DNA from: Frankiales bacterium
GTDB lineage: Bacteria; Actinomycetota; Actinomycetes; Mycobacteriales; Jatrophihabitantaceae
DNA: 64,000 nt
NCBI GenBank assembly: GCA_025966315.1
Contig: JAOPUZ010000034.1
Location: forward strand, 1-64,000
Direction of reading: 5' to 3'
Notes under the pieces: generated by a model
What the model saw: only the letters and a program-made list of their open reading frames with translations
The model's database searches: none
What the model was told of the DNA's origin: nothing
Position numbers and translations under genes: made by a program
Part shown: piece after piece, positions 48,099 to 57,166 of the stretch
Position numbering within the stretch: the first letter of the stretch is position 1
Layout of the letters: each line of letters opens with the position of its first letter

Positions 48099-49574
48099 TC
48101 AGCGAATCCGGCGCACCAGGTAGGCGGACGAGCCGTCTGGCTGCTCGATGCTGCTCAGCAGCAGTTGGCCCTGCATCCGGCACCAGGCGGCAATGTCGCT
48201 GGCCGCGGCGGGGTCATCGGCCAGCACGGTCACTTCGGCACCGACGGCGACCTGCGGCAAGTAGCGGGCCAGATCCAGGATAGGCAGCGGGCAACGCCGT
48301 CCGCGGCTGTCGACGATGTCGCTGGTGGTCAGCCCTGACCGCATCGGCGCCGGGCTGGCGGCGTTCGTTTCCGGACGGGGCGCCGGATGGTTGATCGGCT
48401 GCGGCAGTTGCGCCCGTACCGCGGCGACGGCGCCGGGCAATACCCGCAGGAAGTACTCGATGTCGGCCTCGCTGGTCCAGGGCGGCAGCGAAACGCGCAC
48501 GTTGCCCGAGGTCAGCGCCCCCATCGCCACCAGCACGTGCGAGGGCGTCAACGTGTCCGATGTGCATGATGAGCCGGAGGACACGGCGATGCCCCGTCGA
48601 TCGAGCTCGGTCAGCAACGCCTCACCGTCGACGTACAGGCACGAGAACGTGACCAGATGGGGCAGCCGCCGGACCGGGTCGCCCAGGACTACGGCGTCGT
48701 CCATCAGAGCCGGAACCCGCGCCCTGATGTCGTCGATGAAACGGCTCAGCCGGGGCGCCGCCTCGGCCGCCTCTTTGCGGGTCGCCAGCAGTGCGGCGGC
48801 GGCGGCGACGATGGCTGGGACCGCAACTGTGCCTGGGGAGTACCCCGACTCTGCTTCATCCGAGGGAAAGGGATTGCGCCACCGCGTGCCGCGCCGCACG
48901 ACCAGCACGCCGACGCCGGCCGGACCGCCCCAGAGCCGGGCGTCGGCGGTGAACACCGGGCTGGTCGGGGCCTGACCGTGCACCAGTTCGTGGCTGGCGT
49001 CCACGATTAGCGGTACACCGGCGGCCCGCAGCGCGGCTCCGATCGACTCGAGCGGTTGCCGGGTGCCTACTTCGTGGTTGGCCGCCTGCAGGACGGCCGC
49101 GGCCACGCCCGGTTCAGTAGCGGCCCGGATGAATTCGTCCTGGTGTACTCGACCGGCCTCGTCCACCCCGACGACCCGCACCGTGCCGCCGTGGCTCTCG
49201 TGCCAGTCGGCCGCCTTGAACACGGCCGAATGCTCAACCGCGGAATGGACGAGGGTGTCACCGGCCCGGCGGCGTCCGAGCAAGGTGCCGAGCACCGCGA
49301 GATGTATCGCATGCGTTCCGCTGGGAGTGAAATGCACCTCGTCGGCGCGCACCTGCAACGTCGTGGCCACCGACTCCCGGGCGGCATCGAGTAGCACCGC
49401 GCTGCGACGGCCCGGACCGGTCAGCCGGCCCGGATCAGCCCAGCCGTCTTCGGCCGCGGCCGCCAGCGCTTCGGCGGCGACGGCATGTAGTGGTACCCCG
49501 GCGGCAGCGTCTAGATAGCCGCCGTAGCGATGCGACGTGGATGGATTCAGCGGTGTGGGCGGCGGCACATCCAT
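48099..49574 (-). CDS. Cysteine desulfurase-like/TusA fusion lacking the PLP lysine
   Basis: The N-terminal 390 residues follow the class V aminotransferase fold of cysteine desulfurases: HSAVEHSAVF (His115 stacks on PLP), ANHEVGT, LIVDASHE (Asp192), and SSGSSCTSDT with the persulfide Cys337. But the motif that should hold the PLP-binding lysine (SAHKWGGP in close relatives) reads DARLWGGP at 211-218, with Leu214 replacing Lys and Arg replacing His. After a Pro-rich linker, residues 420-491 form a TusA/SirA domain with CPLP (428-431). The protein may trade sulfur or persulfide rather than perform PLP chemistry. ATG 49574 is preferred; GTG 49598 is possible. Confidence 0.8.
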   Translation of the reverse strand: MDVPPPTPLNPSTSHRYGGYLDAAAGVPLHAVAAEALAAAAEDGWADPGRLTGPGRRSAVLLDAARESVATTLQVRADEVHFTPSGTHAIHLAVLGTLLGRRRAGDTLVHSAVEHSAVFKAADWHESHGGTVRVVGVDEAGRVHQDEFIRAATEPGVAAAVLQAANHEVGTRQPLESIGAALRAAGVPLIVDASHELVHGQAPTSPVFTADARLWGGPAGVGVLVVRRGTRWRNPFPSDEAESGYSPGTVAVPAIVAAAAALLATRKEAAEAAPRLSRFIDDIRARVPALMDDAVVLGDPVRRLPHLVTFSCLYVDGEALLTELDRRGIAVSSGSSCTSDTLTPSHVLVAMGALTSGNVRVSLPPWTSEADIEYFLRVLPGAVAAVRAQLPQPINHPAPRPETNAASPAPMRSGLTTSDIVDSRGRRCPLPILDLARYLPQVAVGAEVTVLADDPAAASDIAAWCRMQGQLLLSSIEQPDGSSAYLVRRIR

Positions 49575-49712
49575 GACGCTAGTACCGTCCCACTCCACAC
49601 CCCTGCGGCCCTGACGCCACAGGGTCAGATAGTCTCAGCAGACGCTTCGCAGGTGGCCGTTCGACGACACTCGACGACCCCCGCCCGGAAAGTGTGAAAG
49701 GCGGTTTCGCCC

Positions 49713-51077: not shown

Positions 51078-51105
51078 TCGCCTTCCGCACCGTCCCGCAT
51101 ACATT

Positions 51106-51125
51106 GTTCGCTCGATCGAGCGAAC
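51106..51125. terminator. 20-base perfect palindrome after ctaF
   Basis: GTTCGCTCGA followed immediately by TCGAGCGAAC is fully self-complementary. It lies 29 bases past the ctaF stop, in the 247-base gap before the convergent flavoprotein gene. With no loop and no T-tract it could be a weak bidirectional terminator or a protein-binding site. The rest of the gap shows no gene. Confidence 0.45.
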
Positions 51126-51324
51126 GGCGGATATGAATCAATCGGTAGCGGGCCGGCGCACCCGGCAGCCAAGAAAGCCCCTCGCCGAGATCTGGGGCGC
51201 CGAGGACAGGACCCACGCACGCGCGGCGGTCATCGTATTCATCGAGATCACCGGCGGGCCGGGTTCGCGCGCGGAAGCCGAACTACGGCCCTTGGTTGTG
51301 GTCCTGGCACCGGGTCGGCTTGCG

Positions 51325-52881
51325 CTACTCGGATGCGGCGTTCTCGGTGCGGTGATGAATCTCGGCGATATCGCCGTCGCGCACCGCTTCCGACACCGAG
51401 GCGTCTACAGCTGCGTCGCCCGTAACGCCACCATCTCTATGTGGTCCGGCAACCTTACTGTCGAGGCAGCCCTTACCAGCGCGATCGGAAGCGTCAGCTA
51501 CGGTCGAATTTTGTGACTCCATCATGCGAAGAACGTTGTCGGCGGTGAGCTTTCGCCATAAGACCAGAACTTTGGTCAGGGTTGTTGGAGCAAGCATCCA
51601 TGCCGAGGAGCGGACAAGCTGCGTTGTCTCTTCCATCTTCTTCGTCGTGCTCAGGTCTGCCAGGGAGAGGACAGCGACTCGCTCGATATAGGCGAGCAAG
51701 ATGCGAGTGGCGGGACGCTGCAGGGGCTTGCCCCCGCCAAGCCTGTCCACTACATAATCGGTTCCGGTGCTCAACGTCCAGGGCAGCCACGTCGCACGGG
51801 CAAGACGCCTCTGATATCGCCGAGAAAACCCCCGCCGATCCGTGCGGCGCCGGGATATTCGTCGCAGTTCAGTGCCTAACAGATCTGCCGCGATGGCCGC
51901 GACCGTCATTCCCTGTCCATGGGCCGGATTCAACGCACAAGCCGAATCTCCCACGACGATGAACCCCTCGACACCATGGCCGCGGTGGTAACGGCGTATT
52001 CGGTTCTCGGTGGAATGGCTGATGTGTATTACGTCCGCCGGAGTGGCCGTATCCAGTACCTGCGCGGCTTCCGGAGACGGAATGCTCGCGACGAATTCCC
52101 GGAAACCTACGTCATCCCGCGGCGGGTAGTCCTTCCGAATACCGACCAATTGGACGAAGGATTTACCGTCCTCAACCGGGAAGACATTCGCGGACCGCAA
52201 CGTAGGCAAGGACACGGAACCGATGATGAGTCTGTCGCCATCGGGGTCTGCCGGTGTGTGGTAGAGCCGGCTGGCGTAGCCGCTGTGGTTGGTGAAGGTC
52301 GTTTCAGTCGGCGGCTGGAAGCCGATGCGAGTTAGCCACTGGGGGGCTGAGGATCCACGCCCACTGGCATCCACCACGAGATCGGCGACGATAGCTTGTG
52401 TGTGACTGCCGTCGTCGGCTTGTGCTATCTCGACACCGCTTATGCTGCTCTTTCGTATCCCGGGGAGTAATTCGTTCACAACAACGCCGGCCAGCACAGT
52501 CACATTGGGAATCCCGGCGACCCGCTTACGAATCTGCCACTCCAGCATCGGCCTAGTCGCCAGCAGAACCCGCGGCGATGCCGCGGCTGTCCCGGCCTGG
52601 GTATCCGCCGGGTCTGGCGGCTTCAGCGGCCACGGCGCAGTCACAACTGCGCCACCGGCGAGCAGCTCATCACCGAGTCCAGGCAGCAGCTTTTCGAGCA
52701 CCGCCCGGCCGCCCGCAAGAAGGACATGATTGTGATGTCCTTGTGGAACGCCTCGGCGCGCCTCGGGCACGTCGGTGAGCTCATCGCGTTCGAAGATGGT
52801 GACCCGTTCAAAGTAGTCACTGAGGACGCGCGCGGCTAACAGACCAGCTATGCCGCCACCGACGACGACAGCGTGGTCCAT
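51325..52881 (-). CDS. FAD-dependent monooxygenase/epoxidase-like protein
   Basis: A 518-residue flavoprotein of the class A monooxygenase superfamily. VVVGGGIAGLLAARVL (5-20) is the FAD-binding loop, RRGVPQGHHNHVLLAGG (42-58) is typical of the branch near terpenoid epoxidases, DASGRGSS (181-188) is the middle motif, and GDSACALNPAHGQGM (311-325) is the GD motif. The last 50 residues are poorly conserved. ATG 52881 gives the natural start; longer versions add no homology. It is divergent from the peptide gene 53189 across a 307-base shared region. I infer it oxidises the prenyl group or the peptide of that cluster. Confidence 0.82.
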   Translation of the reverse strand: MDHAVVVGGGIAGLLAARVLSDYFERVTIFERDELTDVPEARRGVPQGHHNHVLLAGGRAVLEKLLPGLGDELLAGGAVVTAPWPLKPPDPADTQAGTAAASPRVLLATRPMLEWQIRKRVAGIPNVTVLAGVVVNELLPGIRKSSISGVEIAQADDGSHTQAIVADLVVDASGRGSSAPQWLTRIGFQPPTETTFTNHSGYASRLYHTPADPDGDRLIIGSVSLPTLRSANVFPVEDGKSFVQLVGIRKDYPPRDDVGFREFVASIPSPEAAQVLDTATPADVIHISHSTENRIRRYHRGHGVEGFIVVGDSACALNPAHGQGMTVAAIAADLLGTELRRISRRRTDRRGFSRRYQRRLARATWLPWTLSTGTDYVVDRLGGGKPLQRPATRILLAYIERVAVLSLADLSTTKKMEETTQLVRSSAWMLAPTTLTKVLVLWRKLTADNVLRMMESQNSTVADASDRAGKGCLDSKVAGPHRDGGVTGDAAVDASVSEAVRDGDIAEIHHRTENAASE

Positions 52882-53188
52882 ACCACTCGTCCGCACCCTC
52901 AATTCTGACACTTGACGACTCCACTCCCCGCGACTGATGTTGAACAGCACAACAACTGAAGCCGCAGTCTGCGCCCTGAACCCGCTATGCCGCAAGGGAC
53001 TTCCCACCTAAAGGCGCTGCCCCTGCGCGCGCGCACACGAAGAGTCCCGGCCTCGTATGCCATTAGGCCCTCGGGCCCTCGCGACGCGACTCCTAGCAGA
53101 TGCAAACTTCCGCCATGCCGCGCGGGTGCCCATAATCGCGGCTACCTACCCGTAACACTTTCTCTCGATTAAAGAAGGAGCAAATGTC
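52882..53188. promoter_or_regulatory. Shared upstream region of the flavoprotein and peptide genes
   Basis: This 307-base gap separates two divergent starts and should hold both promoters. The right end, from about 53125, is A/T-rich relative to the surroundings and leads into the ribosome site AAAGAAGGAG at 53171-53180. TTGACG (52913-52918) could be a -35 element. No operator or riboswitch can be named with confidence. Confidence 0.4.
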
Positions 53189-53341
53189 ATGAATGAATCC
53201 ACGATCTACGCTGCAACACTGGAAGATATTAATCGGGTCCTCGACGGAGAAGTTGAGCTTCTCGATGTAGCTGCGGATGGGGAAGAAACCGGGATCGGCT
53301 TCCAGCCCATGACGGACTGGCGTCCCGGCGGCTACTGCTGA
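53189..53341 (+). CDS. Putative prenylated-peptide precursor (ComX-like), 50 residues
   Basis: A short reading frame with one of the best ribosome sites in the window: AAGAAGGAG ends eight bases before ATG 53189. The product has 50 residues. The first 33 are acidic and look like a leader (ATLEDINRVLDGEVELLDVA, with Asp and Glu dominant). The C-terminal part, GFQPMTDWRPGGYC, is neutral to basic and aromatic, with its only Trp at 44 and its only Cys at the end. It stands 36 bases before a ComQ-like gene and in the same frame. ComX precursors in Bacillus have the same size, leader nature and a near-terminal Trp that is prenylated. Homology to ComX is not demonstrable by eye. Confidence 0.7.
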   Translation: MNESTIYAATLEDINRVLDGEVELLDVAADGEETGIGFQPMTDWRPGGYC

Positions 53342-53377
53342 CGTTGGAGGGAATGCCACTCCGCGTCGACGGCTGTA

Positions 53378-54427
53378 ATGGCCATACTGAATGAAACAGA
53401 GATTCACGCCGAGCAACTCGGTGGGTTTGGTCAGCGGGTTGTCTGGGCTGCGCATGCCGCGGCTCAGACGACCTGCGGGCTAACCCGAGCGGGGGAGTTA
53501 GCCTGCCGCGTAATCGACGTGACTGGTCGCCGAGGCGTTTCCGCTCATCGCCTGATGTCCGGTGCGGTCGCCGGATGCATACACGGCGAGGTCGAAAGGG
53601 CGGTACCGGTGGCGGCAGCGTCACTGCTCTGGTGGGAAGGCGCCGAATTGCTGGACGATCTCATCGATGGGGCCGATCCGGCTCTGTCGTTGGGCTTCGG
53701 TCACTCCGACGGTGAGCATCAGCCGAGCGAAATCACCCGATCGGAGTTGATGATAACCGCGATCACCCTGCTCACCTTGGTGCCAGCCAGCCTGGTTGCG
53801 GCGCTACCGGTGGCGGCGCAGGTGCGTGGTCGCCTTACTGACGAGCTGACCGGCGCATCAGTTGAGGCGGCCGAAGGACAGTTGGCGGACCTATATCGCG
53901 GTCCCGATGACCTGTCCTGGGCTCGCGTGATGGTCACCTACGGAGCCAAGACTGGCGCCGCCTATGGAAGAGACGCAGCTATGGTCGCGATCCTGGCTGG
54001 GCTGGACGAGCAAGTCGTCGCTGCCTGGCGGGCTTTCGGCCGGATCTTCGGGGTCCTGTTCCAGTTGAGCAACGACAACCATGGCCTGCATAGTGGCGGA
54101 AGCGAGGACCTGTCCAACGCGACGCCGACGTTGCTATTGGCGTATGCGGCGAATTCGTTGGAACCGCAGCGGCGTCATACCCTGCTGCGGTTGAGGTCGG
54201 AGTCGGTCTCTGACGCCTCCGCCCGAGCGGAGTTGCGGCAGCTGCTTTGCTCGCCGGAAGTCCGATCGGGTTACGTTGAGCGTGTGCGGGTCTTACTGCT
54301 TAAGGCCCGCGCTCTGCTCGAGCAGCTTGCGCAACCATCACAACATCGTGACGTGCTGTCGAACTGGCTGGGTTCGGCGGCATGGTCTGCCTCTGTCGAA
54401 CCCGATGGCGAAGGTGGTCGACCATGA
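53378..54427 (+). CDS. Isoprenyl diphosphate synthase-like protein, ComQ-like
   Basis: A 349-residue all-helical protein of the trans-isoprenyl synthase fold. The first Asp-rich motif is intact: WWEGAELLDDLIDGADP with DDLID at 93-97. KTGAAYG (191-197) occupies the place of the conserved Lys-Thr. The second motif is degraded: QLSNDNHGLHSG (229-240) has ND but lacks the last acid, as in ComQ proteins, where QLxND is usual. ComQ binds an isoprenyl diphosphate and attaches it to Trp of ComX. ATG 53378 has no strong ribosome site; a 13-codon frame at 53353 behind GGAGG may couple it to the peptide gene. A plain polyprenyl synthase is the alternative. Confidence 0.78.
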   Translation: MAILNETEIHAEQLGGFGQRVVWAAHAAAQTTCGLTRAGELACRVIDVTGRRGVSAHRLMSGAVAGCIHGEVERAVPVAAASLLWWEGAELLDDLIDGADPALSLGFGHSDGEHQPSEITRSELMITAITLLTLVPASLVAALPVAAQVRGRLTDELTGASVEAAEGQLADLYRGPDDLSWARVMVTYGAKTGAAYGRDAAMVAILAGLDEQVVAAWRAFGRIFGVLFQLSNDNHGLHSGGSEDLSNATPTLLLAYAANSLEPQRRHTLLRLRSESVSDASARAELRQLLCSPEVRSGYVERVRVLLLKARALLEQLAQPSQHRDVLSNWLGSAAWSASVEPDGEGGRP

Positions 54428-54513
54428 AGACCGGCACCGGGGTTCCTGCTTTCTCCCACGAGGCACGAGGTCGCAGCGACGGCCATTCCGCGAAGAGCGG
54501 GCAAGCCCAGTGA
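54424..54513 (+). CDS. Possible 29-residue reading frame linking the ComQ-like and DUF2332 genes
   Basis: ATG 54424 overlaps the ComQ-like stop as ATGA, and its own TGA overlaps a GTG that is in frame with the DUF2332 gene. The product is basic (MKTGTGVPAFSHEARGRSDG at its start) and resembles nothing I know. The ribosome site is weak. It may be a coupling device, a second small peptide, or chance. Confidence 0.25.
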   Translation: MKTGTGVPAFSHEARGRSDGHSAKSGQAQ

Positions 54514-54533
54514 GTGTGCGCGCGGAGGATGCG

Positions 54534-55493
54534 ATGCAGAAGAGCTCCGAGTGCCGAGCCTTTGCGGCCGGTCTGGTTGAGACGGCGCCGCTGGCTGCCT
54601 ACTTCTTCAATTCACTGGCGCGCGAGATTGATGACGGCGGTGAGCTCGGAAATCTTGTAGTCGATCACCCGAGTAGCGCGATTCCGCTGGCTGGTGTCCG
54701 AATGCTCTCGGCTGCTTATCAGCTGACCCTGCGCGGAAAGACCCCTGAGCTGGCGGCCGTTCTGGATGAGGTCATTCATTCCCAAGTGCCGGTCGACTCG
54801 GCGTACGCGAAGGCCTGGGATTTGACCCGCCAAGCCGTCCTCGCCTATCCGGACGAGGTGTATGCCGCGATGTCGACGCCGGTGCAGCAGCAACATCCCG
54901 GGCGGGCTTCAGCACTTTTACAGGGTTTGGCGATGCTGGCGTTCCGCCGCGTGCGGTTGCTGGAAATCGGTGCGTGCGCCGGACTCAGTCTCGCCTTGGA
55001 CCGCTACCACTGGATCGGATCCGGCTGGGAATGGGGCGACCCGTCCTCACCCGTGAAGCTGCCCGCGGACGGTTACTGGCGGCCGCGCGCTGAAATCGTG
55101 CAGCGCGCTGGATGTGACCTGCTGCCCCGGAACGCGGGCAGCCCCGAGGATCGGTTAATCAGTCAATCCTTCGTTCCGCTCGAGCAGCCGGCGTACCAGC
55201 AGCTCCTCGAGCAGGCCATGGTTCTGACCGAACAGGCCGGTATCAAGGTCGAAGCCTCAGCAGCTGCTCCTTGGCTGCGAAGAGCCTTGTCCGAGCGGGC
55301 AGATCCTGGTGTTGCGACCGTGGTCTGGCATTCAATGATGTGGGGCTACGTTGAGCCCAATGAGCAGCGCGAGATCGAAAGCATCTTGGCCGATGCCTCA
55401 TCTCGGATGCCGTTGGCTCGCGTATCGTTCGAACCGGCGGCATGGGGTGACCTCCCGTTACTGCGGGTCTCGGTCTACCCATCAATGTCGTAG
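54534..55493 (+). CDS. DUF2332 family protein
   Basis: A 319-residue protein of the DUF2332 family, common in actinobacteria and uncharacterised. The central RLLEIGACAGLSLALDRYHW (141-160) has the strand-Gly-loop look of a SAM- or nucleotide-binding motif, and HSQVPVDSAYAKAW and VVWHSMMWGYV flank it, but no methyltransferase activity is proven for the family. ATG 54534 is chosen because GGAGG lies six bases upstream; GTG 54510 is the alternative. It sits between the ComQ-like gene and the P450, so a tailoring role in peptide maturation is possible. Confidence 0.8.
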   Translation: MQKSSECRAFAAGLVETAPLAAYFFNSLAREIDDGGELGNLVVDHPSSAIPLAGVRMLSAAYQLTLRGKTPELAAVLDEVIHSQVPVDSAYAKAWDLTRQAVLAYPDEVYAAMSTPVQQQHPGRASALLQGLAMLAFRRVRLLEIGACAGLSLALDRYHWIGSGWEWGDPSSPVKLPADGYWRPRAEIVQRAGCDLLPRNAGSPEDRLISQSFVPLEQPAYQQLLEQAMVLTEQAGIKVEASAAAPWLRRALSERADPGVATVVWHSMMWGYVEPNEQREIESILADASSRMPLARVSFEPAAWGDLPLLRVSVYPSMS

Positions 55494-55579
55494 CTGCCAC
55501 CGTAGCGGCCGGACCCGCAGCGTCTTATGCCTGGTCACTATCGAAAGTCATCGGCTATTGCCGGAAGCAAGGAGTCATC

Positions 55580-56797
55580 GTGGACCTAGCCTCGGTTGCG
55601 GCTGGCCTGTTTACGGCAGAGGGACGCGAGAATCCTTATCCGTATTACCGCGAGTTGCACAAGCGTGGTCCGATAATTCAGGTCGCGCCGGGTCGATTCG
55701 TGGCGGTCGGGTATCACGAGGTGAATCAGCTGATACGGGACACGAACTTCCTGGTCGAGGACGCTGCCCGTGACGACACGGTCTCACTCGACTGGCGCCG
55801 ACATTCCTCACTGGCAGCGGTGAAGAATTCGCTCTTGTTCACCAACTCGCCGGATCACGAACGGATGCGGGGGATGGTGAATGGCGCGTTCACCGCACGC
55901 CGGATCCTGGAAATGCAACCCCGAATAGCCCACCTGGCCGAAGCTCAGCTCGATCAGATGCTCCGCTCGGCTGATGGGGACGGAGTGGTCGACTTCAGCG
56001 CCGACTTCGCCCTGGCTTTTCCCCTCACTATCTTGGGTGAACTCCTGGGTATACCGGAGGTAGATTGCCGCTGGCTACGTCCGCGAGTCGGCGAGTTGAC
56101 CGCGGTCCTTGAGCCGAAGACAGGCAGGAACGACCTCAGCGCCGCCGACGCCGCCGCCTGCGAGCTAACGGAATATCTTGCCAAACTCATCGAGAATCGA
56201 CGCCGGGAGCCACAGGCAGATCTCGTTAGTCAAGTAGCGCATTTCCGGGACACCACCGATAGCACGCTGAGCCGGGACGAGCTGATCGGAAACCTGATCG
56301 CCCTGATGCTCGCGACCGAGTCCACGGGGAACCTGCTCAGCAACGGCGTCGCCATCCTGCTAGAACGGCCTGAGCTATGGACCCAACTTCATGAGCGACC
56401 GGAATTGGTGGACGATTTTATAACCGAAGCCATGCGCTACGACCTGCCCGTGCAGCTGACCAGCCGCAGGGCTCGACATGACTCGGTCCTGGCCGGCTCA
56501 GCCATCACAGCCGGCAGCGCAGTCCTGATCGGCTTGGGTGCGGCCAACCGGGACCCTCGACGGTTTGACAAACCGGACGTCTTCGATCTTCAACGACACG
56601 ACAACCGGCCGATCACTTACGGCGGCGGTAGCCACTTCTGCCTCGGCGCCGCCCTCGCAGCCGTCGAAGTGCGAGCGGTGTTCAGCAGCATGTTCGCCCG
56701 GTTCACGGCGATCGGTAAGGCTGGCGTGCCGGTTCGCCGCGACCGGTCGACGGTGCGTGGCTACGGATCTCTACCCGTAGTGTTCTCGACGCTTTGA
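55580..56797 (+). CDS. Cytochrome P450
   Basis: A 405-residue soluble bacterial P450. The heme loop YGGGSHFCLGAALA places the thiolate ligand at Cys354. The K-helix ExxR is EAMR (283-286), and the I-helix reads LMLATESTGN (242-251), where an acid-Thr pair normally activates oxygen (here Glu-Ser-Thr). No ferredoxin or reductase gene is adjacent, so electrons must come from elsewhere. GTG 55580 has AAGGAG five bases upstream. It is the last gene of the four-gene plus-strand set and is presumed to oxidise the cluster product. Confidence 0.93.
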   Translation: MDLASVAAGLFTAEGRENPYPYYRELHKRGPIIQVAPGRFVAVGYHEVNQLIRDTNFLVEDAARDDTVSLDWRRHSSLAAVKNSLLFTNSPDHERMRGMVNGAFTARRILEMQPRIAHLAEAQLDQMLRSADGDGVVDFSADFALAFPLTILGELLGIPEVDCRWLRPRVGELTAVLEPKTGRNDLSAADAAACELTEYLAKLIENRRREPQADLVSQVAHFRDTTDSTLSRDELIGNLIALMLATESTGNLLSNGVAILLERPELWTQLHERPELVDDFITEAMRYDLPVQLTSRRARHDSVLAGSAITAGSAVLIGLGAANRDPRRFDKPDVFDLQRHDNRPITYGGGSHFCLGAALAAVEVRAVFSSMFARFTAIGKAGVPVRRDRSTVRGYGSLPVVFSTL

Positions 56798-57166
56798 GCT
56801 TGTCCAAGCTTCGCACTGGAATGGCCGCGCGGGCAGTCTCGACAGATTGCCTCATCCCAAGTGCGCACCATCGGCGATCCGGCGAAAGTGCAGCGAGCTG
56901 CGTTGCTGCCTGATCTAACCCCGCGGAGTGCGATGGCCTCCCGAAGTTTCCAGCGCCAAACGATGATCGGCCAGGTTGGCGGGGCGAGCCCGGACCCGAT
57001 GGCGCCAGTTACGTGACCGTTGCCTGCTGGCCTCGGCCTATGTCCGGAACCCGTGCAGGCGAGCCGGAACGCGCCGGAAACACATTGTCCGCGTCCACGA
57101 GCACCTGTGGACGCGGACAATTGCGTACGACCCGAAACGCGGTATGCGCCAGCCGTGGAGGTCGAG
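56798..57166. other. Region between P450 and qcrB without a recognised gene
   Basis: Apart from the terminator at its right end, this 369-base stretch holds only short reading frames with no recognisable motif, for example a Cys- and Trp-containing frame on the minus strand at 56761-57120. It may be a decayed fragment marking the edge of the inserted cluster. Confidence 0.4.
57085..57120 (-). terminator. Strong terminator of the qcr operon
   Basis: TTGTCCGCGTCCAC (57085-57098) pairs over all 14 bases with GTGGACGCGGACAA (57107-57120), loop eight bases. It lies 46 bases past the qcrB stop and is followed on the minus strand by TGTGTTT. It could also stop transcription coming from the P450 gene. 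Confidence 0.85.

Follow-up and report, generated by a model that had tools for sequence, protein, structure and literature searches.

A rare actinobacterial gene cluster that appears to make peptides prenylated on a C-terminal cysteine

In the comQXPA system of Bacillus, ComQ prenylates a Trp of the short precursor ComX. ComQ has a trans-IDS-like form with an intact DDxxD and a degenerate second motif (pseudo-SARM), and mutagenesis shows that NDxxx or GDxxx is needed for Trp prenylation, while an Asn to Asp change drastically lowers it (PMC5331326). PalQ of Paenibacillus alvei is an enzyme of this type that requires its target at the very C-terminus of its precursor, and it accepts only Trp, rejecting other nucleophilic residues (PMC10853753, PMC13290415). 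Ord1 farnesylates free Trp, and according to a 2026 review all characterised trans-IDS-like prenyltransferases target Trp (PMC13290415). A 2017 review states that cysteine isoprenylation had not been detected in prokaryotes (PMC5331326), and no report of this cysteine chemistry in bacteria was found in the literature searched, although the coverage was partial and an unseen report is possible. In eukaryotes, by contrast, prenylated C-terminal cysteines are found in fungal mating pheromones (a-factor, tremerogen A-10) and CaaX proteins.

The locus was analysed in a 64,000-nt window, the whole stretch at positions 1 to 64,000 of contig JAOPUZ010000034.1 (assembly GCA_025966315.1, Frankiales bacterium). 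The initial annotation had described a 50-codon peptide gene with a strong ribosome site, a ComQ-like isoprenyl synthase homologue, a DUF2332 protein and a P450 in one direction, with a divergent flavin monooxygenase, and this observation is confirmed for all five genes. The precursor gene (53189-53341, +) encodes 50 aa (MNESTIYAATLEDINRVLDGEVELLDVAADGEETGIGFQPMTDWRPGGYC), with AAGGAG (53175-53180, +) 8 nt before its ATG and the codon of the C-terminal Cys at 53336-53338 (+). Of 9 strongly SD-led small ORFs in the window it is the only one ending in Cys, and homologous peptides sit beside related synthases in other species, so it is more than a chance frame. The synthase homologue (53378-54427, +, 349 aa) matches Pfam polyprenyl_synt (PF00348, E 4.6e-11). 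The DUF2332 gene (54534-55493, +, 319 aa; PF10094, E 5.2e-52) has its likely start at ATG 54534, although the frame is open from 54276. The P450 (55580-56797, +; PF00067) carries the haem motif GGGSHFCLGA and ExxR, and is 38-40% identical to the P450s of two related clusters (L006 and L010, see below). The divergent FAD monooxygenase (51325 to about 52881, -) hits PF01494 and the geranylgeranyl reductase superfamily; the originally listed start at 53007 is probably too early, and 52881 is the probable start.

The cluster fills a segment (51078-57166) between ctaF and qcrB. These genes are 6.1 kb apart here, but only about 0.4 kb apart in the nearest relative (L143), a genome of the same genus. 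The synthase homologue is absent from the 8 other genomes of the genus and the other 23 of the family, so the segment is an insertion, probably acquired, although GC content gives no sign of foreign origin. The flanking genes are ctaC-ctaF and qcrB-qcrA plus a cytochrome c gene, and no kinase or regulator lies between 51.1 and 57.2 kb. Elsewhere in the window (48099-49598, -) a class V aminotransferase (cysteine-desulfurase-like) is fused to a C-terminal TusA sulfur-carrier domain.

To find relatives, tblastn on plasmids was carried out first, and gave homologues in Streptomyces, three of them near DUF2332, a P450 and small ORFs. A search of genome contigs with the single protein found nothing, while a profile scan based on an alignment, over one genome each for 84,980 species, gave 80 loci. 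In the resulting tree, the window enzyme falls in a strongly supported clade of 11 (SH-aLRT 99), on a deep branch apart from canonical sequences. The other members are S. clavuligerus (L004), Streptomyces sp. NBC_01497 (L005), NBC_00271 (L006), hyaluromycini (L009), LS1784 (L010), MJM8645 (L011) and hygroscopicus (L013), two Lentzea (L008 and L034, the latter L. waywayandensis) and Streptosporangium subroseum (L012). Several rows have long branches, so the order inside the clade is unsure. DUF2332 is found within 10 kb in ten of the 11 (not L008), and in none of 75 sister loci, 67 of which have at least 3 kb of downstream sequence. The sister family (L014-L087 except L034, plus L007 and L089; for example L017:9785-10786), from Streptomyces, Actinomadura and Mycobacterium, keeps DDxxD and NDxxD and has no Cys-ending peptide; 14 of its 75 loci have an FMO and 17 a P450 nearby. 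Searches over the genus, family, order, class, Streptomyces, Streptosporangiales and the Lentzea family showed only that the clade is rare (2 of 393 Streptomyces genomes, 1 of 299 in the Streptosporangium order and 2 of 390 in the Lentzea family).

In all 11 clade enzymes the first motif DDxxD is intact (DDLID in the window, residues 93-97, 53654-53668, +) and the second is reduced to NDxxx with the last Asp lost (QLSND in the window, Q229 to D233, 54062-54076, +), with Q..ND in 11/11. Only this clade has the NDxxx form with the last Asp lost, and it is the form that ComQ needs. The paralogue in the window's own genome (L090) has DDxxD twice. The Lys of GGKxxR and the RR after the first motif, which serve IPP and diphosphate binding in ordinary synthases, are missing from the clade. 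An AF2 model of the window enzyme (pLDDT 90.9) has the trans-IDS fold (Z up to 31.4), and also resembles Ord1 (Z 25.8). R58, S82, E90, W181 and D199 (11/11) and R198, R302 and R324 (10/11) set the clade apart from its sisters, and are putative candidates for peptide binding from sequence alone.

Related precursor peptides were found in 10 of the 11 loci. The annotation of L004, L005 and L006 gave small ORFs that all end in Cys; in S. clavuligerus these are six tandem genes (L004:6428-7381) on the strand opposite to the synthase, with near-identical leaders in five and different ends. To avoid selection by the ending, 700 nt around each synthase start was scanned for SD-led small ORFs of any ending. 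This gave 7 ORFs in ten clade loci (L004 was left out, its genes being on the other strand), of which 6 end in Cys and one in Thr (L012), and 55 in 74 sister loci, none of which ends in Cys (Fisher 1e-7). As clade members are related, this p-value is optimistic. A profile of the leaders with the last 12 residues removed, which therefore never saw the C-terminus, recovered the precursors of eight training loci (the L010 frame was outside the ORF set) and one untrained paralogue (L013:3107-3253, MNCTSATAIAEQILAGDRDVEVLDFTDEEDYTVTNETAGQGTGVFWYC, E 1.8e-7), about 6 kb from the prenyltransferase homologue in S. hygroscopicus, which also ends in Cys (GVFWYC). The L009 precursor was found by its Cys ending, 5 kb away on the other strand, and was then part of the training set. 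L010 and L011 share a TTG start and the end FYTYC. In total 15 of 16 peptides end in Cys and none in Trp. The exception (L012:2957-3088) has the family leader but ends in Thr (GYT), and may indicate a different acceptor or a decayed gene. The peptides share a leader pattern around [AI]E..L[LD]G and most are strongly acidic, whereas outside the leader only the last residue is conserved. No precursor was recognised in L034, which lies near a contig end. The window peptide matches no Pfam or NCBIfam family, and six other precursors match none in NCBIfam.

The DUF2332 protein (predicted METHYLTRANSFERASE) carries LLEIGACAGL, a glycine-rich SAM motif, and its model (pLDDT 81.6) aligns over residues 112-319 with class I SAM methyltransferases at Z 8-10 (VIA-align), although the Foldseek E-values are weak (best 4e-3). 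BioC and PPM1, both carboxyl methyltransferases, are among the matches but do not stand above the others. The assignment as a methyltransferase is good, while the carboxyl as target is inference. A second DUF2332 gene in the same genome (L094, contig C61) scores higher against the Pfam model than the cluster copy (284 against 178 bits), showing that the wider family has other roles. No mention of DUF2332 was found in the literature searched.

A P450 lies in 7 of the 11 clusters, and an FMO in the window and L009. ABC exporter genes lie near L005, L006, L009, L012 and L013, terpene synthases (Terpene_syn_C_2) near L010 (6421-7413) and L009 (16255-17451), and a canonical prenyl diphosphate synthase and a TauD-type oxygenase flank L034 (8064-9233 and 3359-4480). 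The window cluster has no exporter or protease of its own.

The best reading is that the cluster makes a RiPP with an S-prenylated C-terminal Cys, probably methylated and oxidised. In this view, the precursor is recognised through its acidic leader, and the ComQ-like enzyme transfers a prenyl group (C10-C20) from its diphosphate, held at DDxxD, to the thiol of the C-terminal Cys, with the degenerate NDxxx motif placing the peptide where IPP would normally sit. DUF2332 would then methylate the product, most simply as the C-terminal carboxyl methyl ester, by analogy with fungal farnesyl-cysteine pheromones. The P450 and flavin monooxygenase would oxidise the prenyl chain, a protease from outside the cluster would remove the leader, and the product would be exported (a DrrAB-type ABC exporter accompanies several related clusters, but not this one). 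The clade, its motifs, the precursor family, the conserved terminal Cys, the methyltransferase fold and the gene linkage come directly from the analysis, whereas prenyl transfer, Cys as the acceptor, the carboxyl as methylation site, the order of steps, the site of oxidation and export are inferred. That the peptide is a RiPP precursor acted on by this enzyme is considered very likely, Cys as the acceptor is held with moderate confidence, and carboxyl methylation is tentative. Weighing against this reading, no enzyme of this type is known to act on Cys, the L012 precursor ends in Thr, L034 and L008 lack a recognised precursor and a nearby DUF2332, respectively, and the window peptide also has a Trp.

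The initial annotation had inferred a Trp- or Cys-prenylated, further oxidised ribosomal peptide, possibly a natural product rather than a quorum-sensing signal given the lack of comP/comA, and this interpretation is partly supported. The ComQ signature, the conserved precursor, and the recurrence of P450, FMO or exporter genes nearby are borne out. Conservation of a Trp had been set as a test, and a ComX-type Trp site is not supported for the family: Trp is absent from the L006, L008, L010, L011 and first L013 precursors and from five of the six L004 precursors, and L009 has one only in the leader. The Cys alternative is the better supported. DUF2332 had not been identified as a methyltransferase, nor had the likeness to farnesyl-cysteine pheromone processing been seen.

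Among the alternatives, prenylation of a Trp on the indole ring as in ComX (W44 of the window peptide, at -7), with another role for the terminal Cys such as a disulfide or recognition signal, survives best, although it appears unlikely. The window, L005 and second L013 peptides have a Trp near the end, so Trp is not excluded in this one species, and all characterised enzymes of this type act on Trp. The Gln next to the second motif that recognises indole in PalQ is also present here, but it is present in the canonical paralogue too, and so does not discriminate. Most precursors of the clade have no Trp in the C-terminal part. Somewhat less likely, the enzyme may prenylate a small molecule, as Ord1 does, with the peptide as a separate product or unrelated scaffold. 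Ord1 has the same fold, and the sister synthases have no such peptide while some have an FMO or P450 nearby; however, homologous precursors accompany 10 of 11 clade members across Streptomyces, Lentzea, Streptosporangium and the window genome, and only this clade has lost the last Asp. Similarly doubtful is a scaffold role, in which the terminal Cys is modified by all the enzymes and cut off as a small S-prenyl-cysteine-derived product, as amino acids are built at the end of the TglA scaffold. The free variation of the residues before the Cys is consistent with this, but no peptide aminoacyl-tRNA ligase or dedicated protease was found in the cluster, and the different ends of the S. clavuligerus precursors suggest that the end sequences matter. 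An ordinary prenyl diphosphate synthase (such as a GGPP synthase) supplying a terpenoid pathway beside a chance peptide frame, although compatible with the Pfam match and with a fold that is that of GGPP synthases, is very unlikely given the NDxxx motif, the missing GGK and RR, the deep branch and the conserved precursors, and the best NCBIfam hit, a family 2 encapsulin cargo polyprenyl transferase, is rejected at 41.6 bits against a cut-off of 450.

A clade whose putative substrates share a C-terminal Cys makes bacterial Cys prenylation directly testable with two proteins and a peptide. If the reading is correct, it would give a function to a DUF2332 subfamily, offer a one-protein route to prenylate a C-terminal Cys, and point to unexplored lipopeptides in Streptomyces, including S. 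clavuligerus with its six precursor genes. It remains possible, though tentative, that this is the first bacterial S-prenylation of a peptide cysteine, evolved in a trans-isoprenyl-synthase-like enzyme independently of the eukaryotic farnesyltransferases and followed by carboxyl methylation by a DUF2332 enzyme, giving a bacterial counterpart of fungal lipopeptide pheromones and a new RiPP class.

The locus has the short precursor with conserved leader, variable core and adjacent modifying enzymes expected of a RiPP cluster. With ComQ/ComX, compared on motifs and gene content, it shares a short precursor next to a trans-IDS-like enzyme with DDxxD and an NDxxx pseudo-SARM; there is no conserved Trp and no comP/comA, two defining features of comQXPA, the apparent target is the terminal Cys, and DUF2332, P450 and FMO are added. 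With PalQ/PalX, it shares a trans-IDS-like enzyme and conservation of the C-terminal residue of the precursor, but that residue is Trp in PalX, which also has a long nitrile-hydratase-type leader, a histidine kinase in the cluster, and an enzyme with both Asp kept in the second motif. ChrPC-type polycyclic isoprenoid RiPPs and Ord1 share the trans-IDS-like prenyltransferase fold and, as inferred here, tailoring of the prenyl group, but have Trp or free Trp as acceptor, and ChrPC carries a fused cyclase where oxidases and a predicted methyltransferase are found here. With the eukaryotic farnesyl-cysteine pheromones and CaaX proteins, the predicted product is shared (prenylated C-terminal Cys, methyl ester and oxidised prenyl chain), but the enzymes are unrelated: in place of the FTase/GGTase heterodimer, CaaX box, Rce1-type protease and ICMT, there is a trans-IDS fold, a Cys that is already terminal so that no -aaX removal is needed, and a soluble class I methyltransferase fold.
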